This document shows, piece after piece, positions 35,266-56,528 of a stretch of DNA of 64,000 nt. Positions within the stretch are counted from its first letter, which is position 1; every line of letters begins with the position of its first letter. The DNA comes from Wenjunlia tyrosinilytica (GTDB lineage Bacteria; Actinomycetota; Actinomycetes; Streptomycetales; Streptomycetaceae). The notes under the pieces were generated by a model that was not told the DNA's origin, searched no databases, and saw nothing but the letters and a program-made list of their open reading frames with translations. Location: the NCBI RefSeq assembly GCF_014646055.1, contig NZ_BMMS01000007.1, positions 1 through 64,000 on the forward strand, written 5' to 3'. A program made the translations under genes and the position numbers.

Positions 35266-35566
35266 CCGCGACGCTGTGACTGCGGCGCTGTGGCAGGGAG
35301 GCTGTGACTGCGGCGCGGTCGGTTCGCGGTGAACCGCCGCGGTGACGCCGCGCGCGAAGCGAAGGCGGCGCGCGCCGGGCGTGCGCGGGGCCGCGGGGGG
35401 GCGTACCAGGAGCGCGGACAAAACCGCAGGTGAACGGGGTGACGGCCGCGGAGGCAGACACCTCGGCGGACCCGGCCCGGACCCGGCAGCCGACCGCAAC
35501 CTGGTTGCAACCTCCTGCCCTCTAGCGTGCCTTCTCGCGGGACGACGCTACCCGAGGAGGAGCCCT
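35266..35566. other. Aldehyde dehydrogenase upstream region
   Basis: About 300 bases holding GC-rich repeats (GTGACTGCGGCGC repeated near 35275-35315, and a GCCGCG palindrome) and the regulatory palindromes noted separately. AGGAGG precedes the ATG at 35567. No gene. Confidence 0.55.
35496..35512. promoter_or_regulatory. Overlapping palindromes before aldehyde dehydrogenase
   Basis: GCAACC-T-GGTTGC (35496-35508) and GGTTGCAACC (35503-35512) overlap 55 bases before the start. This is a candidate operator for the adjacent GAF/winged-helix regulator or promoter element; no TATA-like -10 could be fixed beyond TCTAGCGT. Confidence 0.55.
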
Positions 35567-37090
<1,524 letters not shown>

Positions 37091-37194
37091 AAGCCCGGCC
37101 TGCGCGGCCTGCAGACCCAGGGGCGGTACGGGCCCGAGGGAGCCGAGTGAGGCGGTCTCCTTCGGGCCCGGCGACCGACTCGCGCGAGCGACGT

Positions 37195-37236
37195 CCGGTG
37201 GTGGGACCGTTTTGGAGGACTCGGTCCCACCACCGG
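37195..37236. terminator. Perfect 15-bp hairpin terminator
   Basis: CCGGTGGTGGGACCG (37195-37209) and its exact complement (37222-37236) enclose a 12-base loop (TTTTGGAGGACT). It lies between the convergent aldehyde and alcohol dehydrogenase genes and is suited to end transcription from both. Confidence 0.85.
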
Positions 37237-37321
37237 CACCAGCCGCGCGTCGGGGAGCGGCCCCGTCAACGCTCCCCAGGGCCCCGGTTCCGCGCCGAAC
37301 CCTTCCGCGCTCCCAGCGTTC

Positions 37322-38344
37322 TCAGCGGGAGGGGGTGAGAACGACGCGGAACCGGGCTTGCCCACTCAGCATCCGTTCGTGCGCCTGCTGCGCCTGCTCC
37401 AGCGGCATCGTCTCGATCATCGGCCGCACTCCGGTGCGCGCGGCGAAGGCGAGAGTGTCCTCGATGTCGAGAGAGGTGCCCGAGGCATGGCCGGTGACGG
37501 TGCGGCTGCCGAAGAGGAACTGGGTGGGATTGACCCCGATCGGCTCGGGCGAGGCGCCGATGACCACGAGGCGGCCCCGGGGCGCCAGCCCCTCGAACGC
37601 GGCCGTCATGACCGCCGCGTCGGCCGCGGTCGCGAAGACCACGCTCGCTCCGCCGAGTTCGGCCAGGGCCTTGGCGACGTCCTGCCCCTCGCTGTCGATG
37701 TAGTGGTGGGCGCCGAGTTCGCGGGCCAGCGCCTCCTTGGCCCGGCCGCGGGCGACGGCGACCGTCTCGAAGCCCATGGCCGCCGCGAACTGCACACCCA
37801 TGTGCCCGACACCGCCCACGCCGAGCACGGCGACCAGGTCACCCGCGACGGCGCCGCTGCGCCGCAGCCCGTTGAACGAGGTCACTCCCGCGCACATCAG
37901 CGGGGCCGCCTCGGCCGCGGTGAGGCCGTCGGGGATGCGCGCCAGCGCCTCCACCGGAACGATCATGGCTTCGGCGTAGCCGCCGTCATAGCCGAGGCCG
38001 GGTATGCGCAGTTCACGGCACTCGATGAAGTCACCCGCGCGGCACTGGCGGCAGCGCCCGCAGTGGCCGCCGTGCCAGCCGACACCGGCCCGGTCCCCCG
38101 GCTCCCAGCCGAGGACGCCCTCGCCGACGGCGTCGATGCGGCCGGCCACCTCATGGCCGGGGACCATCGGGAACGCTCCTGCGGGGAAGTGGCCTCCGGT
38201 CATCCCGGCGTCGCTGTGGCAGACCCCGCACGCCTCGACGGTGAGGCGGACCCGGCCGCGTCCGGGCTCGGGCAGGGTGCGTTCGACGAGTTGGAACTTC
38301 CCTGCGGCGCAGGGGACCTGGGCAACGAGCATGGTGGAGTTCAT
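37322..38344 (-). CDS. Zinc-dependent alcohol dehydrogenase
   Basis: Medium-chain dehydrogenase, 340 residues from ATG 38344 (GTG 38365 would add 7). Catalytic zinc motifs are C-GVCHSDAG and GHEVAGR; structural zinc cysteines are HCGRCRQCRAGDFIEC; the Rossmann motif is VLGVGGVGHMG. The substrate is likely a primary alcohol or aldehyde, as in the AdhP/AdhA group. It is divergent from a TetR gene across an AT-rich palindromic region. Confidence 0.93.
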   Translation of the reverse strand: MNSTMLVAQVPCAAGKFQLVERTLPEPGRGRVRLTVEACGVCHSDAGMTGGHFPAGAFPMVPGHEVAGRIDAVGEGVLGWEPGDRAGVGWHGGHCGRCRQCRAGDFIECRELRIPGLGYDGGYAEAMIVPVEALARIPDGLTAAEAAPLMCAGVTSFNGLRRSGAVAGDLVAVLGVGGVGHMGVQFAAAMGFETVAVARGRAKEALARELGAHHYIDSEGQDVAKALAELGGASVVFATAADAAVMTAAFEGLAPRGRLVVIGASPEPIGVNPTQFLFGSRTVTGHASGTSLDIEDTLAFAARTGVRPMIETMPLEQAQQAHERMLSGQARFRVVLTPSR

Positions 38345-38389
38345 GGTCCTGCTCTCTCTGGTCACGGCACACTTGCGGAATCAACGATA

Positions 38390-38417
38390 CACAGATATAT
38401 ATATCGGCGCTATATAC
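38390..38417. promoter_or_regulatory. AT-rich operator/promoter between adh and tetR
   Basis: Sequence near 38393-38416, AGATATATATATCGGCGCTATATA, has TATATA arms around TCGGCGC. It is far more AT-rich than the surroundings and lies between the divergent alcohol dehydrogenase and TetR genes, so is likely their shared promoter with a TetR site. Confidence 0.6.
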
Positions 38418-38446
38418 TTGGGGCAGCCGTCTGTAGCATTGATCCC

Positions 38447-39169
38447 GTGAGCACGCCGACGAAGGACGCCAAAGAGGCCAAGGACACCAGCGCACGCGAG
38501 CGCATCCTGCGGGCGGCCGCCAAGCTCCTCGCGGAGTCCGGCGGCGAGCCCGTCTCCACCCGCGCCGTGCTCGCCGAGGCCGGTGTCCGGGCACCCACGC
38601 TGTACCACCACTTCGGGGACAAGCAGGGCCTGTTCGACGCGGTCGTCGCCCATGGCTTCGCCCAGTACCTGGCCGCCAAGCGGGAGCTGCCCGTCATCGA
38701 CGACCCGCTGGACAATCTGCGCCAGGGCTGGGACAACCACGTCGAGTTCGGCCTCACCAACCCGGCGTTCTACGTCCTCATGTACGGCTCGGCCCGCCCC
38801 GGGGTCCGCCCTCCGGCGGCGGAGGAGGCCTACAGGCTGCTGCTCGAATCCCTGGAGCGGGTGGCCCGCGCGGGCCTGCTGAGAGTCCCTCCGGAGCAGG
38901 CGGCCCGCATGGCGATCGCCGCGGGCGTCGGGGTGACCCTCACGCTCATCACCGACCCCTCGGGCAGCGTCGACAGCGATCTGTCGGTCCGTACCCGTGA
39001 GGCGGTTCTGGCCGCCACCACCGTCCAGCCGGGCGGCGGTACGCCGGAGAGCTCGCTGCCCGGCCTGGCCATCTCGCTGGGCGCCGCCCTGTCCCAGGAC
39101 GGCGCCCACGTCCTCAGCCCGGGTGAACAGGCCCTGCTGCGCGAATGGCTCCAGCGCCTGGAGTCGTAG
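38447..39169 (+). CDS. TetR-family regulator
   Basis: A 240-residue repressor starting at GTG 38447. HTH about 20-65: RILRAAAKLLAESGGEPVSTRAVLAEAGVRAPTLYHHFGDKQGLFDAVV. A C-terminal ligand domain follows (LMYGSARPGVRPPAAEEAYRLLLESLERVARAGLL). Its divergent position and the AT-rich gap suggest it controls the alcohol dehydrogenase gene and itself; its ligand may be an alcohol or aldehyde. Confidence 0.85.
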   Translation: MSTPTKDAKEAKDTSARERILRAAAKLLAESGGEPVSTRAVLAEAGVRAPTLYHHFGDKQGLFDAVVAHGFAQYLAAKRELPVIDDPLDNLRQGWDNHVEFGLTNPAFYVLMYGSARPGVRPPAAEEAYRLLLESLERVARAGLLRVPPEQAARMAIAAGVGVTLTLITDPSGSVDSDLSVRTREAVLAATTVQPGGGTPESSLPGLAISLGAALSQDGAHVLSPGEQALLREWLQRLES

Positions 39170-40125: not shown

Positions 40126-40857
40126 TCAGAGCAGGTGCGCGGCCGGCTCCCCCAGCCTCGTCAGGCGCTGGGCCAGATCCCCTGCCGGGCTGGTCCTGCT
40201 CTCCTGGGCGAGTGCCGTGTGCATCAGCGCCTCCACCCGGTCGTCGCCGGCCGCCGTCACCCCGAGCATCCCGACGAACAGGTCCACCAGCCACGCCCGG
40301 AGCTCGTCGGCGGGCGGCTGCCTGCCCTGGTCGAGCCAGGTCAGCGACACCATCTCCACCGAGGCGATCCACGAGCGGACCGCCAGCACCAGCCGGGGGC
40401 TCGGCTCGGGAACGTCGAGGTGGACGAGTATCTGCTCGAGGGCGCGGCGCCGCACCTCGTCCACGATCGCGTTGGTGCGGCTCGTCTCGGCGACGCAGCC
40501 GCCGCGCAGCAGGGCCGCGTACCCGGCGGCCCGCTCGTCCACGAACGCCAGATAGCGGTCGAGCGCATTGGACAGCCGTTGCGTCGGGGTGCCCTGCGCG
40601 GGCTCGACGAAGCGCTCGGACAGCTCCTGCGCGGCCTCCCGCAGCGCCGCCTCGTAAAGCTGCTGCTTGCCGCCGGGGAAGTACCGGTAGACCAGCGGCC
40701 GGGAGACCCCGGCCGCCGCCGCCACGTCGTCCAGGGACACCTCCTCGGGCGGCTCATGCCCGAACAGGTCCTGAGCTGCGGCGATCAGCTGCTCCCGGCG
40801 CTTCTCCACGGGCAGCCTGCGGTACGCCCCGCGCTTGACTGCTTCAGATGCTGCCAT
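40126..40857 (-). CDS. TetR-family regulator of the oxygenase cluster
   Basis: A 243-residue repressor, start ATG 40857. HTH about 20-65: RREQLIAAAQDLFGHEPPEEVSLDDVAAAAGVSRPLVYRYFPGGKQQLYEAAL. The C-terminal part has VRSWIASVEMVSLTWLDQGRQPPADELRAWLVDLFVGML. It is 26 bases after the flavin monooxygenase stop and on the same strand, so it is probably the last gene of that operon and controls it. Confidence 0.85.
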   Translation of the reverse strand: MAASEAVKRGAYRRLPVEKRREQLIAAAQDLFGHEPPEEVSLDDVAAAAGVSRPLVYRYFPGGKQQLYEAALREAAQELSERFVEPAQGTPTQRLSNALDRYLAFVDERAAGYAALLRGGCVAETSRTNAIVDEVRRRALEQILVHLDVPEPSPRLVLAVRSWIASVEMVSLTWLDQGRQPPADELRAWLVDLFVGMLGVTAAGDDRVEALMHTALAQESRTSPAGDLAQRLTRLGEPAAHLL

Positions 40858-40883
40858 GCCTCGCAGCGTAACCGGCGCCACCT

Positions 40884-42356
40884 TCAGCCCATCACCTTGT
40901 AGTGCTCGGGCCGGGGTCTGCGGGTCCGCAGCCAGAACTGCCAGGTCCAGCCCGGCCAGGCCGCCCGGTTGACTCCCTCGCTGTCGAGATACCAGCTGGC
41001 GCAGTTGCCCTTGCTCCACACCTCTCCGTCCAGCGAGCCCTGCAGCCGGTCGTTGAACGCGCGCTGCGCCGTGTCCTCGACCTCCAGCGCCCTGCCGCCG
41101 CGCCGGTCGATCAGGTCCAGGCACCCGACGATGTAGCGGGTCTGCGCCTCGACCATGAAGACCATGGAGTTGTGGCCGAGCCCGGTGTTGGGGCCGAGGA
41201 CGAGGAAGAGGTTGGGAAAGCCGGTGACGGTCGTCCCGAGGTACGCCTCGATGCCGTCCGCCCACGCGTCCTGGATCTTCAGACCGCCGCGCCCGGTCAG
41301 CGGCAGCCGCTCCATGGCGTCGGTGACATGGAAACCGGTGCCGAGCACGATCGCGTCGACGGGGTGCTCGGCGCCGTCGCGGGTGACGACGCGGTCGGCG
41401 CGGACCTCCTGGATACCGGTGGTGACGACGTCGACGTTGGGGCGGGCGAGCGCCGGGTAGTAGTCGTTGGAGATGAGGGTGCGCTTGCAGCCCATCGTGT
41501 AGCTCGGGGTCAGCGCCCGGCGCAGCTCCGGGTCCTTGATGTGACGGCGCATGTTCAGCCGGGCGAGCCGCTCGGCGACGCGCATGAGACGCGGGTGCTC
41601 GAAGGCGACGAAGCGGCTCTCCAGGCGCCAGTAGATGGAGGTCCGGTAGGCGCGCTGCGTCAGCGGCAGCCGCTCGAACAGCCGCCGCTCCAGGGAGCTC
41701 ACCGCCCGGTCCGGCTTGGGCAGGATCCACGGCGGTGTGCGCTGGAACAGCGACAGCCTGGCGGCCCTCGGGGCGATCCGCGGCACGAACTGGATGGCGC
41801 TGGCGCCCGTTCCGATCACCCCGACGCGCTTGCCGTCGAGCTCCACGCCGTGGTCCCACTCGGCGGAATGGAACAGCGGCCCCTCGAAGTCGGACAGCCC
41901 CGGGATGTCGGGGATGTTCGGCTTGTGCAGCGGGCCCATGCCGAGGACGAGCGCCCGGCAGGTGAGCACCGAGCCGTCCCCGGTGCGCACCTGCCACAGC
42001 CGCCTCGCGTCGTCGTACTCGGCGCCGCTGAACTCCGTGCCGAAGCGAATGTGCGGCCGCACCCCGTACTTGTCGGCGCACCGCCGCAGATAGGCGAGCA
42101 GTTCGTGCTGGAGCGGGAACATCCGCGACCAGCCGGGGTTGGGCTCGAAGGAGAACGAGTACACATGCGACTGCACATCGCAGGCACAGCCGGGATAGGT
42201 GTTCTCCCGCCAGGTGCCGCCGACCTCGTCGGCCTTCTCCAGGATCACGAAGTCCTCGCGACCGCCGCGCTTGAGCTCGATCGCCATCCCCAGCCCGGCG
42301 AAGCCGGAGCCGACGATGACGACGTCGTGGTCGGGCGGGGTGCTGTCCTCGGTCAC
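40884..42356 (-). CDS. Flavin-containing monooxygenase (BVMO-like)
   Basis: FAD- and NADPH-dependent monooxygenase of 490 residues. The GTG at 42356, preceded by GGGAGG, begins VTEDSTPPDHDVVIVGSGFAGLGMAIELKR with the FAD motif GxGxxG. The Baeyer-Villiger-type marker FxGxxxHxxxWP appears in the form FEGPLFHSAEWDHGV, and the NADPH motif as GVIGTGASAIQF. Substrates may be ketones, acids or hydrophobic rings. It lies between the AurF-like gene (14 bases upstream) and tetR, and probably works with the diiron proteins. Confidence 0.9.
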   Translation of the reverse strand: MTEDSTPPDHDVVIVGSGFAGLGMAIELKRGGREDFVILEKADEVGGTWRENTYPGCACDVQSHVYSFSFEPNPGWSRMFPLQHELLAYLRRCADKYGVRPHIRFGTEFSGAEYDDARRLWQVRTGDGSVLTCRALVLGMGPLHKPNIPDIPGLSDFEGPLFHSAEWDHGVELDGKRVGVIGTGASAIQFVPRIAPRAARLSLFQRTPPWILPKPDRAVSSLERRLFERLPLTQRAYRTSIYWRLESRFVAFEHPRLMRVAERLARLNMRRHIKDPELRRALTPSYTMGCKRTLISNDYYPALARPNVDVVTTGIQEVRADRVVTRDGAEHPVDAIVLGTGFHVTDAMERLPLTGRGGLKIQDAWADGIEAYLGTTVTGFPNLFLVLGPNTGLGHNSMVFMVEAQTRYIVGCLDLIDRRGGRALEVEDTAQRAFNDRLQGSLDGEVWSKGNCASWYLDSEGVNRAAWPGWTWQFWLRTRRPRPEHYKVMG

Positions 42357-42370
42357 GTCGCGGCCTCCCG

Positions 42371-43267
42371 TCAGCCGACCAGTCCGGAGCTGCGCCACAG
42401 CCGCGCGCCCGGTCCGCTGATCACACCGATCTCGTCGAAGAAGCCGGTCAGCCGCTGGGCGGAGGTCCGCATGATCTGCCGCCGGTGGCCGCTGGCGCAG
42501 GCCTGGCGCAGCGCCTCCTGGGGGTCGAGGCCGACCGAGGAGTAGACCCGAGGGCTGATCAGAGCCTTGGCCACGACCCGGGCGGCCTCCCCTGCGGCGA
42601 GGCGGGTGAGATTGCGCTCCCAGGCCGGGCAGGTCGCCATCTGGCGGCGCAGTTCCTCACGGGCGTAGCGCACGTGCCGTGCCTCCTCGACCACGTGGAT
42701 GCGGGTCACCCCGCGCACCAGCGTCTGCACCTTCTCGTCGGGGAAGGTCTGACGCTGCATCCAGTCGAGGATCTCCTCGACGAGCAGGGTGGAGCTGAAC
42801 GACCCCGGGGTGGTGGAGATGGTCTTCATCAGCCGGCCGAGGTTGTGGTGCAGCCTGCTGGGCCGGTAGGCGGGTGCGTCCATCTTCTCGATCAGCCGGG
42901 CGAACATCTTGGAGTGGCGGCACTCGTCGGCGATCTCGGTGAGCGCGTAGCGCACATGCCGGGTGGTCGGGTCCACGTCGAAGATGTGCCGGGTCAGCAG
43001 CTGGATCAGGATGATCTCGAACCAGATGCCGATGGAGCACAGGCTCGCCATCTCGTGCTTGGACAGCTCGATGCGCTGGTCCTCGGGCATCCGGCGCCAC
43101 AGCGGGGTGTCGTAGAGCGAGACCAGGTACTCGGGGAGGAACCACTTGCCGTCCTCGATCGGCGCCTCCCAGTCGAGTTCGACGTCGGGGTCGAAGGAGT
43201 GCTTGGCGGAGGCTTCGAGCAGCCGTTCCGCGACGAGTTCGCGGTTTTTGAAGGGTGCCGTGGTCAA
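42371..43267 (-). CDS. AurF-like diiron oxygenase
   Basis: A ferritin-like diiron protein of 298 residues. The best start is TTG 43267 with GGGGAG upstream. Two helical-pair iron boxes are seen: EIADECRHSKMFARL (ExxH type) and HVVEEARHVRYAREEL, plus an EMASLCSIGIWFE helix. The AurF family oxidises amines to nitro groups or hydroxylates substrates using O2 and an iron pair. It is followed by the flavin monooxygenase with 14 bases between them. It starts divergently from a second diiron gene. Confidence 0.82.
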   Translation of the reverse strand: MTTAPFKNRELVAERLLEASAKHSFDPDVELDWEAPIEDGKWFLPEYLVSLYDTPLWRRMPEDQRIELSKHEMASLCSIGIWFEIILIQLLTRHIFDVDPTTRHVRYALTEIADECRHSKMFARLIEKMDAPAYRPSRLHHNLGRLMKTISTTPGSFSSTLLVEEILDWMQRQTFPDEKVQTLVRGVTRIHVVEEARHVRYAREELRRQMATCPAWERNLTRLAAGEAARVVAKALISPRVYSSVGLDPQEALRQACASGHRRQIMRTSAQRLTGFFDEIGVISGPGARLWRSSGLVG

Positions 43268-43436
43268 CGTTCCGCTCCCCTGCCGGTCTGGTCGTATGCC
43301 TGGACACGTTCGATCGCTCTTATGAGACTGCTTGTCAGCAAACACGTCAATCCCTTGGGCGCACACTTGTTGACCCATCGGTAACTTCCGTGTGACGGTG
43401 ACCACATCGGCTCCCGCGAAGGGAAGGAGAGCGTCC

Positions 43437-44546
43437 GTGTCGACGCAGCGCTTCTACACGCACCCCGTCAAAGAGGCCCAGTGGGAGGTCCCGGCCTCCG
43501 GAGCGGCCCGTTTCACCTGGGAGTACGACGACGGACGCGAACGGCTCCTCGCGCTGTACCAGAAGGGCAAGGACAAGCAGTGGGACGCCGTCAAACGCGT
43601 CGACTGGGACATCGAGGTCGATCCCTATGACCCGCTCGGCGTACCCGACGAGGCGATGACGCTCTACGGTACGCCGTACTGGGACAAGTTCAGCGAACAG
43701 GACAAACGCGATCTGCGGCGGCACTACGCCTCCTGGCAGTTCTCGCAGTTCCTCCACGGCGAGCAGGGCGCCATGGTGTGCGCGGCCCGCATCGTGGAGT
43801 CGGTGCCGGACCTGGACGCGAAGTTCTACTCGGCGACCCAGACCATGGACGAGGCCCGCCACGCCGAGCTGTACTCGCGCTTCCTGCACGAGAAGATCGG
43901 CATGCTCTACCCGATCAACGACAATCTGCGCAGCCTCCTCGGCGACACCCTCACCGACTCCCGCTGGGACATGCCGTATCTGGGGATGCAGGTCCTGATC
44001 GAGGGCCTGGCGCTGGCGGCGTTCGGGATGCTGCGCGACACCACCAACCGGCCGCTGCCCAAGCAACTGCTCGCCTACGTCATGCAGGACGAGGCACGGC
44101 ATGTGGCCTTCGGGCGGATGGCACTGCGCGACTACTACCGCGAGCTGTCCGACGCGGAGCTGCACGAGCGCGAGGAGTTCGTGATCGAGGGCTGCTACCT
44201 GATGCGCGACCGCATCAAGGGAGTGGAGGTGCTGGAGAACTTCGGCATCCCCAAGCAGGAGGCGGACGGGCTCAGCGAGCGCAACGAGTACTTCCAGCTC
44301 TTCCGCAAGCTGCTGTTCAGCCGGATCGTGCCGTGCGTGAAGGACATCGGGCTGTGGGGCGAACGCCTTCAGCGGGCGTATGTGGACATGGGGGTGCTGG
44401 AGCTGGGCGACGCCAGCCTCGACCTGCTGATGAAGGAGGACGAGGCGGTCGCCGAAAGGCTCGACGCCGAGCGCTTCGCGGCGGAGGAGGAGGCGAGAAG
44501 AGCCGAGGTGTCCGAGGCAATCGCGGCGGGAGCCGAACAGGACTGA
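43437..44546 (+). CDS. Ferritin-like (R2/diiron-oxygenase type) protein
   Basis: A 369-residue helical protein from GTG 43437, preceded by AAGGAG. A GTG at 43392 would give 15 more residues. Iron-binding boxes: QFLHGEQGAMVCAAR, TMDEARHAELYSRFL, then YVMQDEARHVAFGRMAL, the two DEARH motifs being typical of diiron carboxylate proteins. The C-terminal tail is Glu/Ala-rich. Together with the divergent AurF-like gene it suggests a two-oxygenase pathway or an oxidase pair. Confidence 0.8.
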   Translation: MSTQRFYTHPVKEAQWEVPASGAARFTWEYDDGRERLLALYQKGKDKQWDAVKRVDWDIEVDPYDPLGVPDEAMTLYGTPYWDKFSEQDKRDLRRHYASWQFSQFLHGEQGAMVCAARIVESVPDLDAKFYSATQTMDEARHAELYSRFLHEKIGMLYPINDNLRSLLGDTLTDSRWDMPYLGMQVLIEGLALAAFGMLRDTTNRPLPKQLLAYVMQDEARHVAFGRMALRDYYRELSDAELHEREEFVIEGCYLMRDRIKGVEVLENFGIPKQEADGLSERNEYFQLFRKLLFSRIVPCVKDIGLWGERLQRAYVDMGVLELGDASLDLLMKEDEAVAERLDAERFAAEEEARRAEVSEAIAAGAEQD

Positions 44547-44621
44547 GCGGGACGGGAGCGGGCCCGTCCGGGGCGGCCCGCGCACGACCGAACGGGTGAG
44601 CGGCCCGGGTCACTGCCGCCG

Positions 44622-45596
44622 ATGTCACATCCGCCGTCGCAGGCTCGTCCCATGGTCATGGACGAATCACCGGAGAACGGCAAGAGAATCCTGCTCGCGG
44701 GAGCGAGCGGCGTCCTGGGGCGGCATCTGGAACGGGCGTTCACGGCCGCCGGATACCGGGTGACCGGGCTCGGGCGGGCACCGGACAACGACGTCTCGGC
44801 ATCCCTGCTCGACCGGGACGCCCTGCTGATGGCCGTGGACGGCATGGCGTTCGACATCGTCATCCACGCGGCCACCGCGTTGCGCGAGGCTCCCATGCGC
44901 CACCGCGACATGGCGGCCACGAACTGGCTGCGGATCGAGGGCACGGAGAATCTGCTGGCCGCCGCGAAGGCCACCGGCGCCCGCCGCTTCGTCGCCGAGT
45001 CGATGGTCTTCGGATACGGCTTCGGCGACCACGGGGACGTCGTCATCACCGAGGAGGGCACCCCCTTCGGGCCCCACGGCAGGCACAGCCGGCTGGAGCG
45101 GCACATCGCGGCGATGCGGACCAAGGAGGAGCTGACCTTCACCGCCGAGGGGATCGAGGGGATCGCCCTGCGGTACGGCCTGCTGTACGGGCAGGGGGCC
45201 ACGGACGCGATCGTGGAGCTGCTGCGCAAGAGGACCCTGCCGGTGCCGGAGGACCGCGGACGGGTGCTGCCCTGGGCGGAGCTCGGTGACGCGGCGCGGG
45301 CCACGGTCGCGGCGGTGGAGCGGGGACGGCCCGGCGAGGCGTACAACATCGTGGACGATGTGCCGCGCGGCTTCGGCGGGCATGTGCGGGCGGTGGCGGA
45401 CACGCTCGGTCTTCGGCGCCCGATGACCGTCCCGGTGTGGATGATGCGGCCGCTGGCCTATGCCCACGCGATGATGACGACGACCCTGCGGGTGTCCAAC
45501 GGCAAGGCACAGCGGGAGCTCGGCTGGACCCCCGAGTACCCCGACTCCTTCGCCGGACTGCGCGCGTACGCCCGCGACGTACAGTCGGTGAGGTGA
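44622..45596 (+). CDS. NAD-dependent epimerase/dehydratase-family protein
   Basis: A 324-residue extended SDR (a start at ATG 44652 or 44658 is also possible). Nucleotide motif GASGVLGRHL (GxxGxxG); IHAATALREAPM; the usual YxxxK is degenerate (HSRLERHIAAMRTKEE), so the catalytic tyrosine may be missing and the enzyme may be a reductase or binder rather than a true epimerase. C-terminal AYNIVDDVPRGFGGHVRAVADTLGL is standard. Downstream of the diiron gene by 75 bases and same strand, so likely one operon. Its stop overlaps the start of the next small gene. Confidence 0.8.
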   Translation: MSHPPSQARPMVMDESPENGKRILLAGASGVLGRHLERAFTAAGYRVTGLGRAPDNDVSASLLDRDALLMAVDGMAFDIVIHAATALREAPMRHRDMAATNWLRIEGTENLLAAAKATGARRFVAESMVFGYGFGDHGDVVITEEGTPFGPHGRHSRLERHIAAMRTKEELTFTAEGIEGIALRYGLLYGQGATDAIVELLRKRTLPVPEDRGRVLPWAELGDAARATVAAVERGRPGEAYNIVDDVPRGFGGHVRAVADTLGLRRPMTVPVWMMRPLAYAHAMMTTTLRVSNGKAQRELGWTPEYPDSFAGLRAYARDVQSVR

Positions 45597-45868
45597 GAAG
45601 CGAGCAGACCGAGTTCGTCGGCGGGCCCATGGACGGCCGGGTGCTGCCGGTCCTGGTCGGTGTGACGGGACATCCCCCCAAGGTCTACCGGGTGCCGGTC
45701 CCGGGTGAGGACGGCGCGGCGCCGACCGTGTACGTGTACCAGCGGGTGCTCAACCCCGACCCCAAGGGGCGGCGCGGGGCCGGGCGGTGGAGGTACGAGT
45801 ACGCGCCGCAGGGGCTGCCCGAGAAGCGGATGTGGCCGTGGAGCCGGCGCGGATCAGGTGGTTCCTGA
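45593..45868 (+). CDS. Small hypothetical protein
   Basis: A 91-residue protein from GTG 45593, whose start overlaps the epimerase stop (GTGA). It opens RSEQTEFVGGPMDGRVLPVLVGV, resembling the small FVGGPMDG proteins seen in Streptomyces, and ends in a basic WPWSRRGSGG tail. Its 3' end overlaps the convergent MFS gene by 15 bases. Function unknown. Confidence 0.6.
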   Translation: MRSEQTEFVGGPMDGRVLPVLVGVTGHPPKVYRVPVPGEDGAAPTVYVYQRVLNPDPKGRRGAGRWRYEYAPQGLPEKRMWPWSRRGSGGS

Positions 45869-47650
45869 GCCCGCCGGCGGCCCCGTGGGGCCACCGGGGG
45901 ACGGTGGCGCGGGGGACGGCGGCCCGGCGGCTGGCGGCCCGGAGGACGGTGGCTCGGAGGACGGTGGCTCGGAGGACGGTGGCGCGGGGGACGGTGGCGC
46001 GGGGGACGGCTGCTCCGGCGACGGCGGGGTGGGCGACGGCGGGCCGGGCGATGTCGAGGGAGCCGCGGCCCCGGCCTCCGTCACCCGGGTGCCCGGGTGC
46101 ATGAGGGCGCACAGGAAGGCGGCCGCCAAGGCGGCGGCCATGGCGTAGAAGACCGTCCTCGTGCCCTCGGCGAAGTCCCCGCGGATGGTCTGGGCGAGAT
46201 CCCGCAGCGCCTGGGCGACCGGGCCGTCCCCGGTGGGCGGGCGGGTGGCCGCGCGTCCCCCGACCGACTGGACGATGTTCTCCGCCAGCCGGTGCGCGGC
46301 GCCGGAGGGCAGGCCCTTTGACTCGAACGTCCTGGTGACGCGGTCGGTGGTCACATGGGCGAGCACTGTGCCCAGGACCGCCAGCCCGACGCTCGCCGAG
46401 TAGTTGCGGACGGTCTGCGTGATGCCCGTGACCTCCCCGTAAGAGGCGTCGATGGAGCGGTTGACGGCGTCGGTGGAGGCGGGCCCCAGCAGGAAGCCGA
46501 TCCCGGCCCCCGACAGCACGATGTAGGGCCACTGCGCGCTCAGGGACAGGTCGGTCAGCTTCCCCGCCCACAGGGTGAATCCGACGGCACCGATGAGCGT
46601 GCCCAGCAGCATCGGGGCCTTGGCCCCTCGTTTGTCCAGCATATGGCCGCCCACCTGGGAGGCCGTGCCGAAGCCCGCGAAGAAGATCAGCAGGTAGAGG
46701 GCGGCCTCGTTCGCCGACGACTGGAGGGCAACCTGGGAGTAGATCGAGGCGAAGAAGAACACGGGGATGAACGTCATCATCGAGAAGAAGAGCACCGCGA
46801 TGTCCACCGCGAACGCCCGGTCGGCGAACACCCGCATCTTGATCAGGGGATCGCGGGTGCGCAGTTGGAGGACGACGAAGAAGGCCAGCACCACCAGCCC
46901 GCCGATGATGCAGGCCCAGGTGGCCGCGCTGTCCCAGCCCCAACTGCCCGCCTGCTGAAGGCCCAGGACGCTCAGCGCCATACCGACCGCGACCAGGAGG
47001 GCACCACGCCGGTCGAGGGGGGCGGGGCGCGGGCGGTTCGGGATGTGCGCCAGCGCGGTCAGCACGAGCGCCACGGCGGCGACCGGGACATTGACCCAGA
47101 AGACGGCCCGCCAGGTCCAGGTGGTCAGCCACCCGCCCAGGATGGGGCCGATGGCGGTCAGACCGCCCGACAGGCCGAAGAACAGGGCCAGCGCGCGTCC
47201 GCGCTGGGAGAGCGGGAAGACCGCGACCACCACGGCGAGGGCGGCCGGGAACATCAGCGCGGCGCCGAACCCCTGGACGGCCCGGAAGGCCACCAGCCAG
47301 ACCTGCGCCCCGCTGCCTTTGGGCACCGCCCCGCACAGCGCCGAGGAGACGACGAAGACGACGGTGCCGATCAGCATGACGCGACGGTGGCCGAAGATGT
47401 CGGACAGCCGGCCGCCGAGGGCGAAGAAGGCCGCGAGCGAGAGCAGGTAGGCGTTGACGACCCACTGCATGCCGTAGGCCGAAAGGCCGAGGTCGCGAAT
47501 GATGCTCGGGGCCGCGATGGACACGATCGTCTGGTCGATGAATGTCATCGCCACCGCGAAGAGCATCGCCGCCAGCGCCAGATTCCGCCTGTGCCGGGCG
47601 GCTTCGGCACAATCCGGGCCGGAACCGGCAGAGCCCTCGATGTCCGTCAC
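45854..47650 (-). CDS. MFS drug exporter, DHA2 (EmrB/QacA) family
   Basis: A 598-residue proton-driven exporter with 14 predicted helices. Typical motifs: VAMTFIDQTIVSIAAPSIIRDL in TM1, LGGRLSDIFGHRRVMLIG (motif A) and GWLTTWTWRAVFWVNVP (motif C region). It starts at ATG 47650. Residues about 535-598 are an unusual Pro/Ser/Glu low-complexity tail, PSPAPPSPAPP-like, encoded by 15-bp repeats near 45.9-46.0 kb. A drug or pathway product export role is likely. Confidence 0.9.
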   Translation of the reverse strand: MTDIEGSAGSGPDCAEAARHRRNLALAAMLFAVAMTFIDQTIVSIAAPSIIRDLGLSAYGMQWVVNAYLLSLAAFFALGGRLSDIFGHRRVMLIGTVVFVVSSALCGAVPKGSGAQVWLVAFRAVQGFGAALMFPAALAVVVAVFPLSQRGRALALFFGLSGGLTAIGPILGGWLTTWTWRAVFWVNVPVAAVALVLTALAHIPNRPRPAPLDRRGALLVAVGMALSVLGLQQAGSWGWDSAATWACIIGGLVVLAFFVVLQLRTRDPLIKMRVFADRAFAVDIAVLFFSMMTFIPVFFFASIYSQVALQSSANEAALYLLIFFAGFGTASQVGGHMLDKRGAKAPMLLGTLIGAVGFTLWAGKLTDLSLSAQWPYIVLSGAGIGFLLGPASTDAVNRSIDASYGEVTGITQTVRNYSASVGLAVLGTVLAHVTTDRVTRTFESKGLPSGAAHRLAENIVQSVGGRAATRPPTGDGPVAQALRDLAQTIRGDFAEGTRTVFYAMAAALAAAFLCALMHPGTRVTEAGAAAPSTSPGPPSPTPPSPEQPSPAPPSPAPPSSEPPSSEPPSSGPPAAGPPSPAPPSPGGPTGPPAGSGTT

Positions 47651-47766
47651 AAGGAGAAATTCTCCGCGCCCCGGGCACGGTTCGCACGCCGAACGCCGCG
47701 ATGAGCCGGTGCCGCCGGAGCGAGGGCAGAGCGACGGTGCCGCGACGACTCCTCGCGTGGACTACT

Positions 47767-47803
47767 CCTGTATAGACCATTGACAGGATTGGTACAGACC
47801 TAT
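47767..47803 (+). promoter_or_regulatory. Chitinase-type direct repeats / DasR-like sites
   Basis: Two related boxes, TGTATAGACCA (47769-47779) and TGGTACAGACCT (47790-47801), start 21 bases apart, i.e. two helical turns. The second matches the DasR consensus ACTGGTCTAGACCAAT at 12 of 16 positions (47788-47803). They lie about 60 bases before the chitinase start, as in known Streptomyces chi promoters. Confidence 0.72.
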
Positions 47804-47858
47804 TGAGTGCGGGTTGCGCCCATCCTTCGCCCCCCACGTCCAGAAGGAGCAGCCCCCC

Positions 47859-49445
47859 ATGCTCAGACGCACCCGAGCGCTGGCCTGTACCACCGCGCTC
47901 GCCACTACGGCGGCCGCCGTGCTGGCCGCCGCGTTCGCCCTGGCGCCCTCGGCACATGCCGGGGAGTTCCTGGCCAACGGCGGCTTCGAGACCGGCTCGC
48001 TCAGCGGCTGGACCTGCGACGCGAGCGCCAGGACCGTGACCGGCCACGCCAAGTCCGGCGGCTACGCCCTCGCCGGCAGCCCCGGCTCCGACACCGCCCA
48101 GTGCAAGCAGACGGTGAAGGTCGCCCCCAACACCACCTACCGGCTGACCGCCCAGGTCAACGGCTCCTACGTCTATCTGGGAGTCGAGGGCGGGAAGAGT
48201 ACGTGGACACCGGGCACCGGCGGCGGCTACCAGCCGCTGAGCGTGGACTTCACCACGGGCGCGAGCCAGACCAGTGCCACCGTCCATCTGCACGGCTGGT
48301 ACGGGCAGGCCACCTACTACGCCGACGACGCCTCCCTGACGGGGCCCGGCTCCCCCGACCCGACCGATCCCCCGACCGACCCACCCACCGACCCGCCGAC
48401 CGATCCCCCCACCACGCCGCCGTCCTCGGACCTGCCCGCCCACGCGCTGGTGGGCTATCTGCACTCCAGCTTCGCCAATGGGTCGGGATACACCCGGATG
48501 GCGGACGTCCCGGCCGGCTGGGACGTCATCAATCTGGCCTTCGGCGAGCCGACCTCGGCGACCTCGGGTGACATCCGGTACGCGCTCTGCCCGGCGAGCG
48601 AGTGCCCCAATGTCGAGTCCGAGGCCGACTTCAAGGCGGCGATCAAGGCCAAGCAGGCCCAGGGCAAGAAGGTGCTCATCTCCATCGGCGGGCAGAACGG
48701 CCAGGTCCAGCTGACCACCACGGCCGCCCGCGACAAGTTCGTGCAGTCCGTGAGCGCGATCATCGACAAGTACGGGCTCAACGGCCTCGACATCGACTTC
48801 GAGGGCCACTCTCTGTCCCTCGACGCCGGTGACACCGACTTCAAGAACCCCAGGACACCGGTGATCGTCAATCTGATCTCCGCGCTGAAGACGCTCAAGG
48901 CCAAGTACGGCAGCGGATTCGTCCTCACCATGGCGCCGGAGACCTTCTTCGTGCAGCTCGGCCACCAGTTCTACGGGCCCGGGCCGAACGGTGCCCAGGA
49001 CGCCAGGGCGGGCGCCTACCTGCCCGTCATCCACGCCATGCGAGGCGACCTGACCCTGCTCCACGTCCAGGACTACAACTCCGGCCCGATCATGGGCCTG
49101 GACAACCAGTACCACCAGATGGGCGGCGCGGACTTCCACATCGCCATGACCGACATGCTGCTGTCCGGCTTCCCTGTGGCGGGCAACAGCAACAACAGGT
49201 TCCCGGCGCTGGCGCCCTCCCAGGTCGCGATCGGCATGCCGGCCAGTCCCAACGCCGGCAATGGATGGGTGGCCCCCGGTGAGGTGAACAAGGCGCTCAA
49301 CTGCCTGACGAAGAAGACCGACTGCGGTGGCTATGCCACCCATGGCACCTGGCCCGCCCTGCGCGGCCTGATGACCTGGTCGGTCAACTGGGACAACTTC
49401 AACGGCCGGGAGTTCTCCAAGAACTTCGACAGCTACTTCGGCTGA
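47859..49445 (+). CDS. Secreted GH18 chitinase with N-terminal binding domain
   Basis: Exported endochitinase of 528 residues, start ATG 47859 with GAAGGAG upstream. The signal peptide ends near AHAGEF (about residue 30); a beta-rich carbohydrate-binding module covers about 31-165 (FLANGGFETGSLSGWTC...); a Pro/Thr linker DPTDPPTDPPTDPP follows; the GH18 catalytic domain runs about 190-528. The catalytic segment is GLDIDFE with E as acid. The substrate is chitin; the family matches Streptomyces ChiA/ChiC-type enzymes. Chitinase promoter repeats precede it. Confidence 0.93.
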   Translation: MLRRTRALACTTALATTAAAVLAAAFALAPSAHAGEFLANGGFETGSLSGWTCDASARTVTGHAKSGGYALAGSPGSDTAQCKQTVKVAPNTTYRLTAQVNGSYVYLGVEGGKSTWTPGTGGGYQPLSVDFTTGASQTSATVHLHGWYGQATYYADDASLTGPGSPDPTDPPTDPPTDPPTDPPTTPPSSDLPAHALVGYLHSSFANGSGYTRMADVPAGWDVINLAFGEPTSATSGDIRYALCPASECPNVESEADFKAAIKAKQAQGKKVLISIGGQNGQVQLTTTAARDKFVQSVSAIIDKYGLNGLDIDFEGHSLSLDAGDTDFKNPRTPVIVNLISALKTLKAKYGSGFVLTMAPETFFVQLGHQFYGPGPNGAQDARAGAYLPVIHAMRGDLTLLHVQDYNSGPIMGLDNQYHQMGGADFHIAMTDMLLSGFPVAGNSNNRFPALAPSQVAIGMPASPNAGNGWVAPGEVNKALNCLTKKTDCGGYATHGTWPALRGLMTWSVNWDNFNGREFSKNFDSYFG

Positions 49446-49586
49446 TCCACCGCCGACCTCGGCGACATCGCCGCGGTCCCCGCCGGGCGCCCCCGGTTTC
49501 CGGAGGATTCACACATCCTCCCTGCCGGGGGCGGCCCCTGCCATGGCAGGATCTCCCCCGACGCGTGTCGATCCGGAGGTGATGGG

Positions 49587-50774
49587 ATGTCAGCGGCACA
49601 CCGCTCCCAAGGGTGGCTGAGCAGGGCACTCTTGTGCGGGGCCGTCCTGGCAGCCGCGGCGCTCGCGCTGCCCGCGCAGGCCGCCCACGCCGCACCGACC
49701 CCTGGTCCGGGTTCGGGATCCGGCTCGGGGGGCGGTCAGGCGTCCGACTCCACGTTCGACCACACCCTGCCGCCCGGGGCCGACAGCTCGGCCGACGGCT
49801 CCGACGCCCCTCTGGAGGCCCTGCTCGGTCGCCTCCAGTCGCTGTACGGGGAGGCGGAGAAGGCCACCGAGGGCTACAACCGGGTCAACGAGAAGCTGAG
49901 GGACCAGCGCAAGGCGCTGACGGAGGTCACCCGGAGGCTGGAGCGGCAGCGCGAGGACATGGGCGAGAACCGCAAGCAGATCGGACGCCTCGCCCGCAGC
50001 CAGTACAGGGACGGCAACCTCTCCGACTACAGCAGGCTCCTGCTCAGCCCGGACCCGCAGACCGCGCTGGAGCGCACCCATCTGATCGCCAAGGCCGCCG
50101 ACTCGGCGGCGAGCCTGACCAAGCGGCTGCGCGAGCAGGAGAAGCGCCTCGACCGGCTCGTGGACCACCGCAGCGATGCGGTGAAGGACGTCGAGAAGCT
50201 CGCACGGGAGCAGAAGAGCGCCCGCGACAAGGTCAAGGAGCGGCTGGACCGCGTCGAGAAGGTGGTCGGCTCGCTCACGGGAGCCCAACTGGAAGAGCTG
50301 CGGCAGCTGGAGGAGCGAGGGGCCAGTGCCTCACAGGCGGAGTTCCTGCACTCCGGCATACTCGGCACGGGCAGCCGCCGCCCCTCCGAGGCCGGGCAGC
50401 GCGCCATCGCCTACGCGTTCCGGCACCTGGGCGACCCCTATGTCTGGGGCGCGGAGGGGCCGCGGGCCTTCGACTGCTCGGGGCTGACCTCGCAGGCGTG
50501 GGCGCACGCCGGAAGGCCGGTTCCCCGCACGAGTCAGGAGCAGTGGGAGCGGCTGCCCAGGGTTCCGCTGAACCAGCTGCGCCCCGGCGACCTGGTCATC
50601 TACTTCCCCGGCGCCACCCATGTGGGGATGTACATCGGCAACGGGATGATCGTGCAGGCCCCTCGGCCGGGCGACCGGGTGAAGGTCTCCCCGGTGGGCT
50701 CGATGCCGGTGCTCGGCGCGGTGCGCCCGGACCCGGAGGCGGAGTCGGTCAAGAACTGGTCGCCCAAGAGGTAG
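49587..50774 (+). CDS. Secreted NlpC/P60 cell-wall endopeptidase
   Basis: A 395-residue exported protein. Signal peptide about 1-35 (ALLCGAVLAAAALALPAQAAHAA). A coiled-coil segment spans about 85-225 (NEKLRDQRKALTEVTRRLERQREDMGENRKQ), as in RipA-type proteins. The C-terminal NlpC/P60 domain about 270-380 has Cys in FDCSGLTSQAW (about 297), His in THVGMYIGNG, and GDLVIYF. It would cut peptide links in peptidoglycan during growth or sporulation. Start ATG 49587 follows GGAGGTGAT. Confidence 0.92.
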   Translation: MSAAHRSQGWLSRALLCGAVLAAAALALPAQAAHAAPTPGPGSGSGSGGGQASDSTFDHTLPPGADSSADGSDAPLEALLGRLQSLYGEAEKATEGYNRVNEKLRDQRKALTEVTRRLERQREDMGENRKQIGRLARSQYRDGNLSDYSRLLLSPDPQTALERTHLIAKAADSAASLTKRLREQEKRLDRLVDHRSDAVKDVEKLAREQKSARDKVKERLDRVEKVVGSLTGAQLEELRQLEERGASASQAEFLHSGILGTGSRRPSEAGQRAIAYAFRHLGDPYVWGAEGPRAFDCSGLTSQAWAHAGRPVPRTSQEQWERLPRVPLNQLRPGDLVIYFPGATHVGMYIGNGMIVQAPRPGDRVKVSPVGSMPVLGAVRPDPEAESVKNWSPKR

Positions 50775-53236: not shown

Positions 53237-53766
53237 CGCTCCATGCTGCGGCGCAGTTCCACCCGCAGCTCCGGGGTGAGCACATGCCCGGCCCGGCCGA
53301 CGAACAGCGCCATGTGGTAGGCCACGACGCTCAGATCGCACTCGGCGGCCGCGTGGACCCCCAGCAGCGATCCGTCGCTTATCGACATCACGAACAGATG
53401 CCCATCGTTCATCGTCACGACGGTCTGCTTGACCGGACCGGCTTCCATCAGACGGGCCGCCCCGTCGGTGAGGCTGGCCAGTCCGGAGACGACGGTGGAC
53501 AGCTCCGCCGAACCGTCGGCCGGACCCTCGGGATCGGCCGGACCCTCGGGATCGGCCGGACCGTCCTCCCGCGCGCTCGGGCTGTCGGACTCGCCCTCGC
53601 CGTCACCGCCGCGTCTGCCCTCGGACGAGGCGAGCAGGAGCCCGTCCGACGAGACCACGGCCACCGACCGCACACCCGGCACCTCGGTGACCAGGTTCGC
53701 CAGCAGCCACTGCAGATTCTGCGCTCCGGTACTGAGCCCTTCCGCGTCCGTCCGTGCCGCGTTCAA
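53233..53766 (-). CDS. cvnB: Conservon roadblock/LC7 protein CvnB
   Basis: A 177-residue roadblock/LC7 protein, start ATG 53766, overlapping the end of cvnA by four bases. The NLQWLLANLVTEVPGVRSVAVVSSDGLLLASSEG core is standard. It contains an insert of charged/proline sequence (about 50-85) with ADPEGP repeated two to three times; the insert is longer than in most CvnB proteins. The C-terminal half has TVVTMNDGHLFVMSISDGSLLGVHA. Confidence 0.92.
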   Translation of the reverse strand: MNAARTDAEGLSTGAQNLQWLLANLVTEVPGVRSVAVVSSDGLLLASSEGRRGGDGEGESDSPSAREDGPADPEGPADPEGPADGSAELSTVVSGLASLTDGAARLMEAGPVKQTVVTMNDGHLFVMSISDGSLLGVHAAAECDLSVVAYHMALFVGRAGHVLTPELRVELRRSMER

Positions 53767-56528
53767 CCGCGTGCCTCCCCATCATCCGTGTCCGCGAGGT
53801 CGGCCACGGCCGCCTCGGCGTCCCTGCGGCCGTCGAGCAGGCCCCGCTGGAAGCCGCCGAGCCTGCGCCGAAGCTCCTCGGCGCTCACCCCTGCGGCGCG
53901 CCCGGCCGTTTCCCCGACCCCTCTGCCCCGGACACCGGTCTCGCCGCCGTCCTCGGTCCGGCCCTTCCTGCGCGCCACGGGGGCCGGACCACCGTGCAGG
54001 GAGCCGGCGTTGGGCACCCGCTTGGGCAGCCCGGCCCTGGTGAGCCTCGGCGGCTCGTCCGCGGCCGGTTCCTGGGCCGGGGGTGCCTTCCGGGCCGGCT
54101 TCGGCCGGGTCGGCGGCTCCTCGGGGGTGTCCCCGTCGGGCCGGGAGTGCTCCTCGCCGCCCTCGCCCTCCTCGGCGGGACCACCCACCCTCGGAGCCGG
54201 AACGCCATGAGTCGCGGGGCTCGCGGGGCTCGCGGGGCTCGCGGTCGCGCCCAGTGCGGCGGGAGGCGGTGTCCCCTGAGCCGGAGCGTCCTTCCGGATC
54301 CGCTCCAGGCGCCGGGAGGCGCACCGCGCCAGGGCCTTGGGCTCCCGGTCGCCGTCGCGCGGCTGGGGAACGGGCACCTGCGGCGCCTCGCCCTGCTCGG
54401 GCGCCACCACGACGTCACGCGGCAGGACCACCACCGCGGTCACCCCGCCCTTGCGCATCTCGCGCAGCTGCACCCGGATGCCGTGCCTGCGGGCGAGGCG
54501 GGCCACCACGAACAGGCCCATGCTGCGGGTGGCGTCCTCCTCGTGCGCGTTGGAGCCGTTCAGCTGCTCGTTGAGCTCGGCCAGGCGGTCGGCCGGGACC
54601 CCGATGCCGCGGTCCTCGACGGAGAGCATCACCTCGCCGTTCTCCAGCACCCAGCCGCTGACCTCGACATCGGACTGCGGGGGCGAGAACGCCGTGGCGT
54701 TCTCCAGGAGTTCGGCCACGAGGTGGCTGGTGTCATCGGCGGCGAACCCCGTCATGTAGGTGGCGGGCATGAACTGGATGCGCACCCGCTCGTACCGCTC
54801 GATCTCGGAGATGGCGGCACGCAGGACGTCGATCAGCGGGACCGGGCCGCGCTGGGAGCCGGCCGAGTGCTCCTCACCGGCGAGCACCAGCAGGTTCTCG
54901 CCGTTGCGCCGCATCCGGGTGGCGAGGTGGTCGAGCTGGAAGAGGCTCTCGAGCTGTTCGGCGTCCTGCTCGTGGTTCTCCAGGCGCTCGATCAGCGCCA
55001 GTTGGCGCTCCACCAGGGACAGGGTGCGCATGGAGAGGCTGACGAAGGTGTTGTGCAGATTGACCTGGAGGGAGTCGCGCTCGGCGAGCAGGCTCTCCTG
55101 CTTGAGCAGCAGCGCGTCCCTTTCGGCGGCCAGGGCGTCGCGCACGCCCAGCAGTCCGCCGTGCTCGGAGGCAAGGGCGCCACGCTCGCCGTGCAGACGG
55201 ACGGCGGCCTCCTGAAGACCGCTCACGGCCTCGGCCACGGAACGGAACTCGTCCCTGGCGGTGACGGACACCGGCCGGGGCTCCGGCGTGCGCACGTCCC
55301 TGCGGTTCAGCGGGGGCAGCACCCGCCCGTTGAGGTCGTCGGCGGCCTTGCGCAGCGCGGCCAGCGGGCGGACGACGGAGCGCGAGACCTGGACGGTGAA
55401 ACCGAGGACGACGAGCGCGCCGAGGGCGAGGAGGGCGAGGGTCAGCTCGAGGTCGACCACGTCCTCGTTGCGCATGCTCTCGAGGCGGTAGGCGGCGTCG
55501 CCCGTCAGCGACGACTCGACGCTGCGCATCCGGTCGATACGGGCGGTCAGCGCGGACTCGACGTCGTCGATGCGCAGCCGGAAGTCGTTCCCGGACAGGC
55601 GGGGCTGGTCGGTGAGCCGACGCAGCATGGCCTCGGCGTCGTCGACCTCCTTGCCGGTGACGGTCTCGCTGTACCGGTCCTGGGCGGCGGTGGACGCGGT
55701 CGCGTTGTAGTCGGCGAGTGCCGCCTCCTCGCGCACGCCCGCCTGCTGGGCCGCGCGCACGTAGGGCGGCTGGGAGCCGCCCGCGGCGAGCGCGGACAGC
55801 AGCAGGCCGCGCTGGGCGGAGGCCTGCTCGACGGCCCTGCCGAGCGCGGGCAGGGCGGTGGTGTCCGCGTCGGCGGCGCGGCCGGGCAGGGCCTCGACGA
55901 CGGCTCGTCCGAGACCGCCGAGGGCGTCGATGATGCGGGTGTAGGAGTCGAACGCCGCCTTGGCCGATCCGGGCCCCGACAACGAGCGCTGGCGAAGGTC
56001 GGGCAGGGTGGCCAGGAGCTTGCCGACGGCCTCGGTGCGGTCGGCGACGGCGGGGTCGTCACCGGGGTCCACGTCGGCGGCGCTGCGGCGGACCTCGGCG
56101 GCCTGCCGGTCCACCCGGGTGCGCTGCGACTCGGTGAGCCCCGCACCGCCCGAGGTGGAGCGTCCGGCGGCGATGAACACGGCCATCTGGTCGCGCTCGT
56201 CGGCGAGGGAGTGGGACAGGGCGACGGCCCTGCGGTTCAACTCGCCCAGATCGTCGAGCCGCTGCGACTCGCTCAGGTCCCCGGCCGCGCCGACGACGCC
56301 GGGAGCGCCCACGGCGACCACCGCGACGACGCAGACGGCGATCAGGGCAAGGAAGCGGCTGCGCACGCGCTTGCGCGGGGGCGCGGCGCCCATGGGTGCC
56401 CGTACGGCACTCTCGGCTTCGGCCGAAGCTCCGGGGGCCGCACCCCCGGCCAACACAGCGGGCGCCGCTTTCAGCGGCTTTCGCCTTGTCCGCACCGGAT
56501 CTCGCAATCTCGTTTCGCGCTCGTACAC
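53763..56528 (-). CDS. cvnA: Conservon sensor histidine kinase-like protein CvnA
   Basis: A 921-residue membrane sensor. Two transmembrane segments frame a nitrate- and sulfur-sensing (NIT)-type extracytoplasmic region (about 60-360). A HAMP-like and coiled-coil segment follows, then a kinase-like ATPase with HLVAELLENATAFSPP (N box), VEDRGIGVPADRL (G1) and SMGLFVVARLARRHGIRVQLR (G2). The expected His-box is degenerate, as usual in CvnA. The C-terminal 200 residues are Pro/Ala/Lys-rich. First gene of the conservon operon with cvnB-C-D. Confidence 0.93.
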   Translation of the reverse strand: MYERETRLRDPVRTRRKPLKAAPAVLAGGAAPGASAEAESAVRAPMGAAPPRKRVRSRFLALIAVCVVAVVAVGAPGVVGAAGDLSESQRLDDLGELNRRAVALSHSLADERDQMAVFIAAGRSTSGGAGLTESQRTRVDRQAAEVRRSAADVDPGDDPAVADRTEAVGKLLATLPDLRQRSLSGPGSAKAAFDSYTRIIDALGGLGRAVVEALPGRAADADTTALPALGRAVEQASAQRGLLLSALAAGGSQPPYVRAAQQAGVREEAALADYNATASTAAQDRYSETVTGKEVDDAEAMLRRLTDQPRLSGNDFRLRIDDVESALTARIDRMRSVESSLTGDAAYRLESMRNEDVVDLELTLALLALGALVVLGFTVQVSRSVVRPLAALRKAADDLNGRVLPPLNRRDVRTPEPRPVSVTARDEFRSVAEAVSGLQEAAVRLHGERGALASEHGGLLGVRDALAAERDALLLKQESLLAERDSLQVNLHNTFVSLSMRTLSLVERQLALIERLENHEQDAEQLESLFQLDHLATRMRRNGENLLVLAGEEHSAGSQRGPVPLIDVLRAAISEIERYERVRIQFMPATYMTGFAADDTSHLVAELLENATAFSPPQSDVEVSGWVLENGEVMLSVEDRGIGVPADRLAELNEQLNGSNAHEEDATRSMGLFVVARLARRHGIRVQLREMRKGGVTAVVVLPRDVVVAPEQGEAPQVPVPQPRDGDREPKALARCASRRLERIRKDAPAQGTPPPAALGATASPASPASPATHGVPAPRVGGPAEEGEGGEEHSRPDGDTPEEPPTRPKPARKAPPAQEPAADEPPRLTRAGLPKRVPNAGSLHGGPAPVARRKGRTEDGGETGVRGRGVGETAGRAAGVSAEELRRRLGGFQRGLLDGRRDAEAAVADLADTDDGEARG

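Follow-up and report, generated by a model that had tools for sequence, protein, structure and literature searches.

A conserved and apparently uncharacterized Fer/AurF-TetR oxygenase locus with lineage-specific additions in Wenjunlia tyrosinilytica

The diiron protein gene fer, the divergent gene pair aurF-tetR and the downstream open reading frame dn1 form a conserved core in Streptomyces relatives, and in Wenjunlia tyrosinilytica this apparently uncharacterized oxygenase locus carries lineage-specific additions. We analyzed it in a window of 64,000 nucleotides on contig C7 of the W. tyrosinilytica genome (8.49 Mb, 172 contigs). A preliminary description had proposed a cluster of five genes encoding a TetR regulator, a flavin monooxygenase (BVMO), two diiron oxygenases and a short-chain dehydrogenase/reductase (SDR). 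Of this proposal, the association of Fer, AurF and TetR stands, whereas the BVMO gene appears to be a genus-level and the SDR gene a genome-level insertion. Our reading of the locus, tentative and short of probable, is that its products would oxidize a lipophilic substrate in several regulated steps, a type I BVMO having joined the core first and an SDR later.

Profile searches located all five genes at their previously described positions, and the Pfam matches bore out the families named for them (Table 1). No match to phage families was found. Homologue starts and ribosome-binding sites placed the start of AurF at the TTG codon and moved that of Fer from 43392 to 43437, which leaves a divergent intergenic region of ~170 bp between the two diiron protein genes. 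This common promoter region with a TetR gene close by had been described before; the promoter motif at 43319-43350 and dn1 had not. An oxidative capacity beyond the needs of a single step, as suggested earlier, is supported by the presence of two diiron proteins and a BVMO.

Table 1. Features of the locus (positions in the window).
Feature	Position	Strand	Evidence
TetR2, TetR-family regulator; 3'-most gene of the AurF-BVMO-TetR unit	40126..40857	-	PF00440 and PF21943
Type I BVMO-like flavin monooxygenase, between AurF and TetR	40884..42356	-	PF13738/PF00743, fingerprints
AurF-family diiron oxygenase	42371..43267	-	PF11583, E 4e-97; TTG start at 43267
Conserved putative promoter/operator motif TTGACGnnCTTGCTGACAnGCAGTCTCATAAG	43319..43350	-	Conservation across loci and genomes
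GGGTCAACAAG, inverted copy of motif half-site CTTGyTGAC, upstream of the motif	43366..43376	-	
Fer, second AurF-superfamily/R2-like diiron protein, divergent from AurF	43437..44546	+	PF11583, E 6.8e-16
Atypical extended SDR (epimerase-like), without catalytic Tyr	44622..45596	+	PF01370, E 4.9e-21
dn1, conserved ORF of ~90 aa; start overlaps the SDR stop	45593..45868	+	Homologues in other loci

Gene neighborhoods were compared in 80 Streptomyces-type loci from named genomes. Fer, with orthologues 76-84% identical, was divergent from AurF in 70 of them, and two of the ten remaining loci lie too near a contig end to judge. The TetR gene (53-77% identical) followed AurF on the same strand in 72 loci and lay on the opposite strand in five. 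Downstream of TetR, most loci contain a dn1 homologue (45-67%), for which no Pfam match was found. The BVMO gene, in contrast, adjoins the core in a single locus (L049, from Wenjunlia vitaminophila) and the SDR gene in none of the 80, and these counts led us to reject a conserved five-gene cluster. The BVMO and SDR genes thus showed the scattering in other genomes that had been named beforehand as evidence against a cluster; the core did not. AurF-type homologues (E 1e-30) were detected in 194 of the 200 family genomes sampled, a count that takes in more distant, paralogue-like copies (~50% identity) in some genera, and the subfamily is near-universal in Streptomyces and its relatives. Our literature search found no paper characterizing it or Fer. 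SCO5297, a candidate guessed from synteny in S. coelicolor, turned out to be a transposase.

The usual gene order is Fer on the minus strand, AurF, TetR, dn1 and an NlpC/P60 gene on the plus strand, then a styrene-monooxygenase-like gene on the minus strand. Compared with Streptomyces relatives and with G001, the nearest of the genomes compared, positions 40126-50774 of the window are rearranged, such that TetR-BVMO-AurF-Fer is inverted relative to dn1-P60-StyA, and the same region has gained the SDR gene together with one MFS and one GH18 gene. G001 has the canonical order, except that the BVMO gene is inserted and the site no longer has Fer, and it agrees with the W. vitaminophila locus in order and identity; its BVMO homologue is 76% identical and occupies the same position between AurF and TetR. 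Because BVMO is present in both genus genomes and SDR in one, the former would be a genus-level and the latter a genome-level insertion, as far as two genomes show.

The surroundings of the locus contain further genes. A styrene-monooxygenase-A-like flavoprotein (PF17885; 50906-52135), which neighbors the core in ~59 of the 80 loci, is possibly a third oxygenase of the region. Genes for an aldehyde dehydrogenase, a zinc alcohol dehydrogenase (minus strand) and another TetR protein (35342-39169) adjoin the cluster in the window and are not beside AurF in G001. A Roadblock-domain protein and a NIT-domain sensor kinase (53239-56369) form a conservon-like group that is conserved near the core.

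The SDR had been noted to lack an obvious YxxxK motif, and alignment confirmed that Ala/Gly or another residue replaces the Tyr. The same Tyr is absent from all 17 aligned homologues, the closer of which mostly retain the Lys, so that a changed role specific to the W. tyrosinilytica gene does not hold: the whole subfamily is without it. Homologues of the SDR turned up in 17 of the 121 family genomes searched and never next to AurF.

The AurF-side intergenic region contains a 32-bp motif, TTGACGnnCTTGCTGACAnGCAGTCTCATAAG, that is recognizable in 77 of the 80 loci and has an expectation of zero occurrences in shuffled windows. When 61 family genomes were scanned allowing up to three mismatches, the motif was found exactly once per genome in 33, and a reversed-pattern control gave no hits; where coordinates were compared, the match falls immediately upstream of AurF. 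The scan revealed no second site in the W. tyrosinilytica genome at this tolerance, and a regulon-wide role was rejected on this ground. The motif persists in genomes from whose locus Fer is missing (G001, L048, L090 and L103), implying that it belongs to AurF. The upstream element GGGTCAACAAG is conserved in most loci and missing in several Actinacidiphila loci. We propose that TetR2 controls the motif and would be released from it by a compound of the pathway.

The BVMO is most similar in the PDB to cyclohexanone monooxygenase (E 1.2e-75). It carries two GxGxx[GA] Rossmann motifs (GSGFAG and GTGASA) as well as the BVMO1 (GGTWRENTYPGCACD) and BVMO2 (FEGPLFHSAEWD) fingerprints as defined in PMC9044951, which place it among the type I enzymes. 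In nine loci of the outgroup actinobacterial family f17 (L252, L253, L255, L257 and L272-L276), an AurF homologue is directly followed by a BVMO homologue, most of them within a conserved GMC oxidoreductase-MerR-SDR-AurF-BVMO-hydrolase cluster with a classical SDR and an alpha/beta hydrolase. Since this adjacency recurs in a distant family, the AurF-BVMO pairing looks functional. An unrooted BVMO tree does not group the f17 and Wenjunlia lineages; common ancestry of the two pairings is not supported, and they may have arisen independently. Related BVMOs of the Streptomyces family (~50% identical) likewise adjoin alpha/beta hydrolase and classical SDR genes.

Fer scored 58.7 bits against PF11583 (cut-off 29.6). 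In all 15 sampled family genomes that carry a close orthologue, it adjoins AurF; outside the family, 16 sampled genomes have both genes, in every case on different contigs or separated by more than 1 Mb, and Fer often follows a TetR gene. Given this separation, Fer may be unrelated to the AurF pathway.

The AurF-type protein exceeds the PF11583 gathering cut-off (325.2 versus 29.6 bits). Both diiron proteins retain two ExxH motifs and extra Glu ligands, and the AurF-type pattern E, ExxH, E, H-x3-ExxH is conserved in 45-46 of 46 homologues, outgroups included (45 at one His). Characterized AurF/CmlI enzymes are amine N-oxygenases. A serious rival to lipid oxidation, though one that we consider rather unlikely, is that the AurF-type protein converts an amine to a hydroxylamine, nitroso or nitro compound, with the flavin enzyme either acting on what is formed or carrying out N-oxygenation as well. 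Its predicted structure (pLDDT 81.3) has the AurF/CmlI fold, the best nine Foldseek matches all being AurF/CmlI (TM 0.55-0.66); its close-fold relatives of known chemistry are N-oxygenases, and the full set of three His and four Glu, with H-x3-E-x2-H, is present. The best NCBIfam model of the SDR points the same way: it is the diazo-removing reductase AvaA7 (NF058621), matched at 146.6 bits, below the cut-off of 400. However, the structural alignment with AurF/CmlI gave only 13-17% identity, neither phmmer nor profile searches matched them, and PDB sequence searches with the AurF-type protein and Fer returned no usable relatives. The family-wide location without an evident biosynthetic cluster around it also argues against N-oxygenation, as do the recurrent f17 neighbors, i.e., alcohol oxidase, SDR, BVMO and hydrolase. 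In eight other loci (L266-L270, L285, L287 and L290), among them second AurF copies of Streptomyces-family genomes (L270 and L290), the gene after the AurF homologue encodes a 4Fe-4S ferredoxin-NADP reductase-like fusion, which could plausibly supply electrons.

Alternatively, and with equal doubt on our part, the functional unit might comprise AurF and its TetR only, with Fer regulated independently and BVMO and SDR as chance insertions at a tolerant site. The absence of Fer from eight loci with sufficient upstream sequence, in which AurF and the motif are kept, fits this model, as do the separation of Fer from AurF outside the family and the confinement of the SDR to the rearranged W. tyrosinilytica locus with its MFS and GH18 insertions. 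It does not account well for the persistence of the BVMO between AurF and TetR in the two genus genomes, for the nine outgroup pairings or for the consistent adjacency of Fer to AurF within the family. That one or both diiron proteins instead serve iron/O2 or oxidative-stress handling, or act as R2lox-like oxidases, is very unlikely: Fer is weakly similar to R2 and R2-like ligand-binding oxidases and in some outgroups lies near genes that by inspection resemble rsrA-like anti-sigma and aroA/rsgA genes, but it scored only 25.8 bits with the R2-like ligand-binding oxidase model NF006200 (cut-off 194), and the genes that accompany AurF (reductase, BVMO and oxidoreductase) suggest a catalytic role.

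Lipid oxidation is the best-supported reading and rests on gene context. In our working model, the AurF-type enzyme would hydroxylate a lipophilic substrate with O2 and electrons from a ferredoxin/reductase, and an alcohol oxidase or dehydrogenase would form the ketone; a candidate is the homologue of the f17 GMC oxidoreductase (72% identical) on another contig of the W. tyrosinilytica genome. The BVMO would then convert the ketone to an ester and a hydrolase would cleave it. As a further oxygenase under separate promoter control, Fer may feed or parallel the AurF route and would be dispensable. Both the substrate and the order of reactions are inferred, and C-hydroxylation is an extrapolation because of the amine chemistry of AurF/CmlI. 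The fixed orientation of the core, the single-copy AurF promoter motif, the AurF ligands and fold and the BVMO fingerprints support the model, as do the nine f17 pairings, the hydrolase and SDR neighbors of related BVMOs, the reductase-like fusions beside other AurF homologues and the GMC homologue. Against it, we recognized neither an alpha/beta hydrolase nor a classical SDR gene in the W. tyrosinilytica locus, the f17 SDR had no match in the genome at E 1e-20, and the BVMO lineages are not grouped in the tree. The literature yielded no biochemistry for these proteins. An acyl, amine or sterol substrate had been suggested; nothing in these analyses points to a sterol or amine in particular, and an indirect lean to lipids comes from two findings. 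A Fer paralogue (~65% identical; L120:9454-10578 and L121:8856-10043) lies directly downstream of a YegS/diacylglycerol-kinase-like gene in both genus genomes, and TetR2 weakly resembles FasR (NF053731, 60 bits, cut-off 330). The pathway would most likely oxidize a fatty or lipid compound.

A locus that sits at the same chromosomal position in most Streptomyces relatives and has its motif once per genome is expected to have a physiological role, and we found none described. The AurF-BVMO pairing in a distant family suggests a testable route of hydroxylation, oxidation, Baeyer-Villiger reaction and hydrolysis. In its most specific form, which we regard as distinctly unlikely, the AurF-type subfamily would be a C-H oxygenase rather than an amine N-oxygenase and would supply a lipid-cleaving pathway that depends on a BVMO and is controlled by a dedicated TetR with one operator per genome; Fer would likewise act in lipid metabolism, as another diiron oxygenase not described so far. 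If true, AurF chemistry would extend beyond amines.

The arylamine N-oxygenases AurF and CmlI share with the AurF-type protein the Pfam family, the predicted fold and the two-iron ligands, including the third His of H-x3-E-x2-H, which Fer replaces with Val (Val215; its predicted structure, at pLDDT 55, was too poor to use). They differ in setting, being encoded in antibiotic clusters rather than at a family-wide core location. Type I BVMOs such as cyclohexanone and phenylacetone monooxygenase and the mycobacterial MymA, EthA and Rv0892 have BVMO1, BVMO2 and both Rossmann motifs in common with the W. tyrosinilytica protein, which is shorter (~490 versus ~540 aa), is encoded within an AurF-TetR unit and has a predicted activity. 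In Mycobacterium abscessus, MAB_4050c-4053c are listed as monooxygenase, ferritin-like reductase, lipase/esterase and SDR (PMC11925935), a likeness by annotation only. The f17 cluster has adjacent AurF (45-52%) and BVMO (51-55%) genes in the order and strand of W. tyrosinilytica; it differs in having MerR in place of TetR, in lacking Fer and, mostly, in including a classical SDR, a hydrolase and a GMC oxidoreductase.
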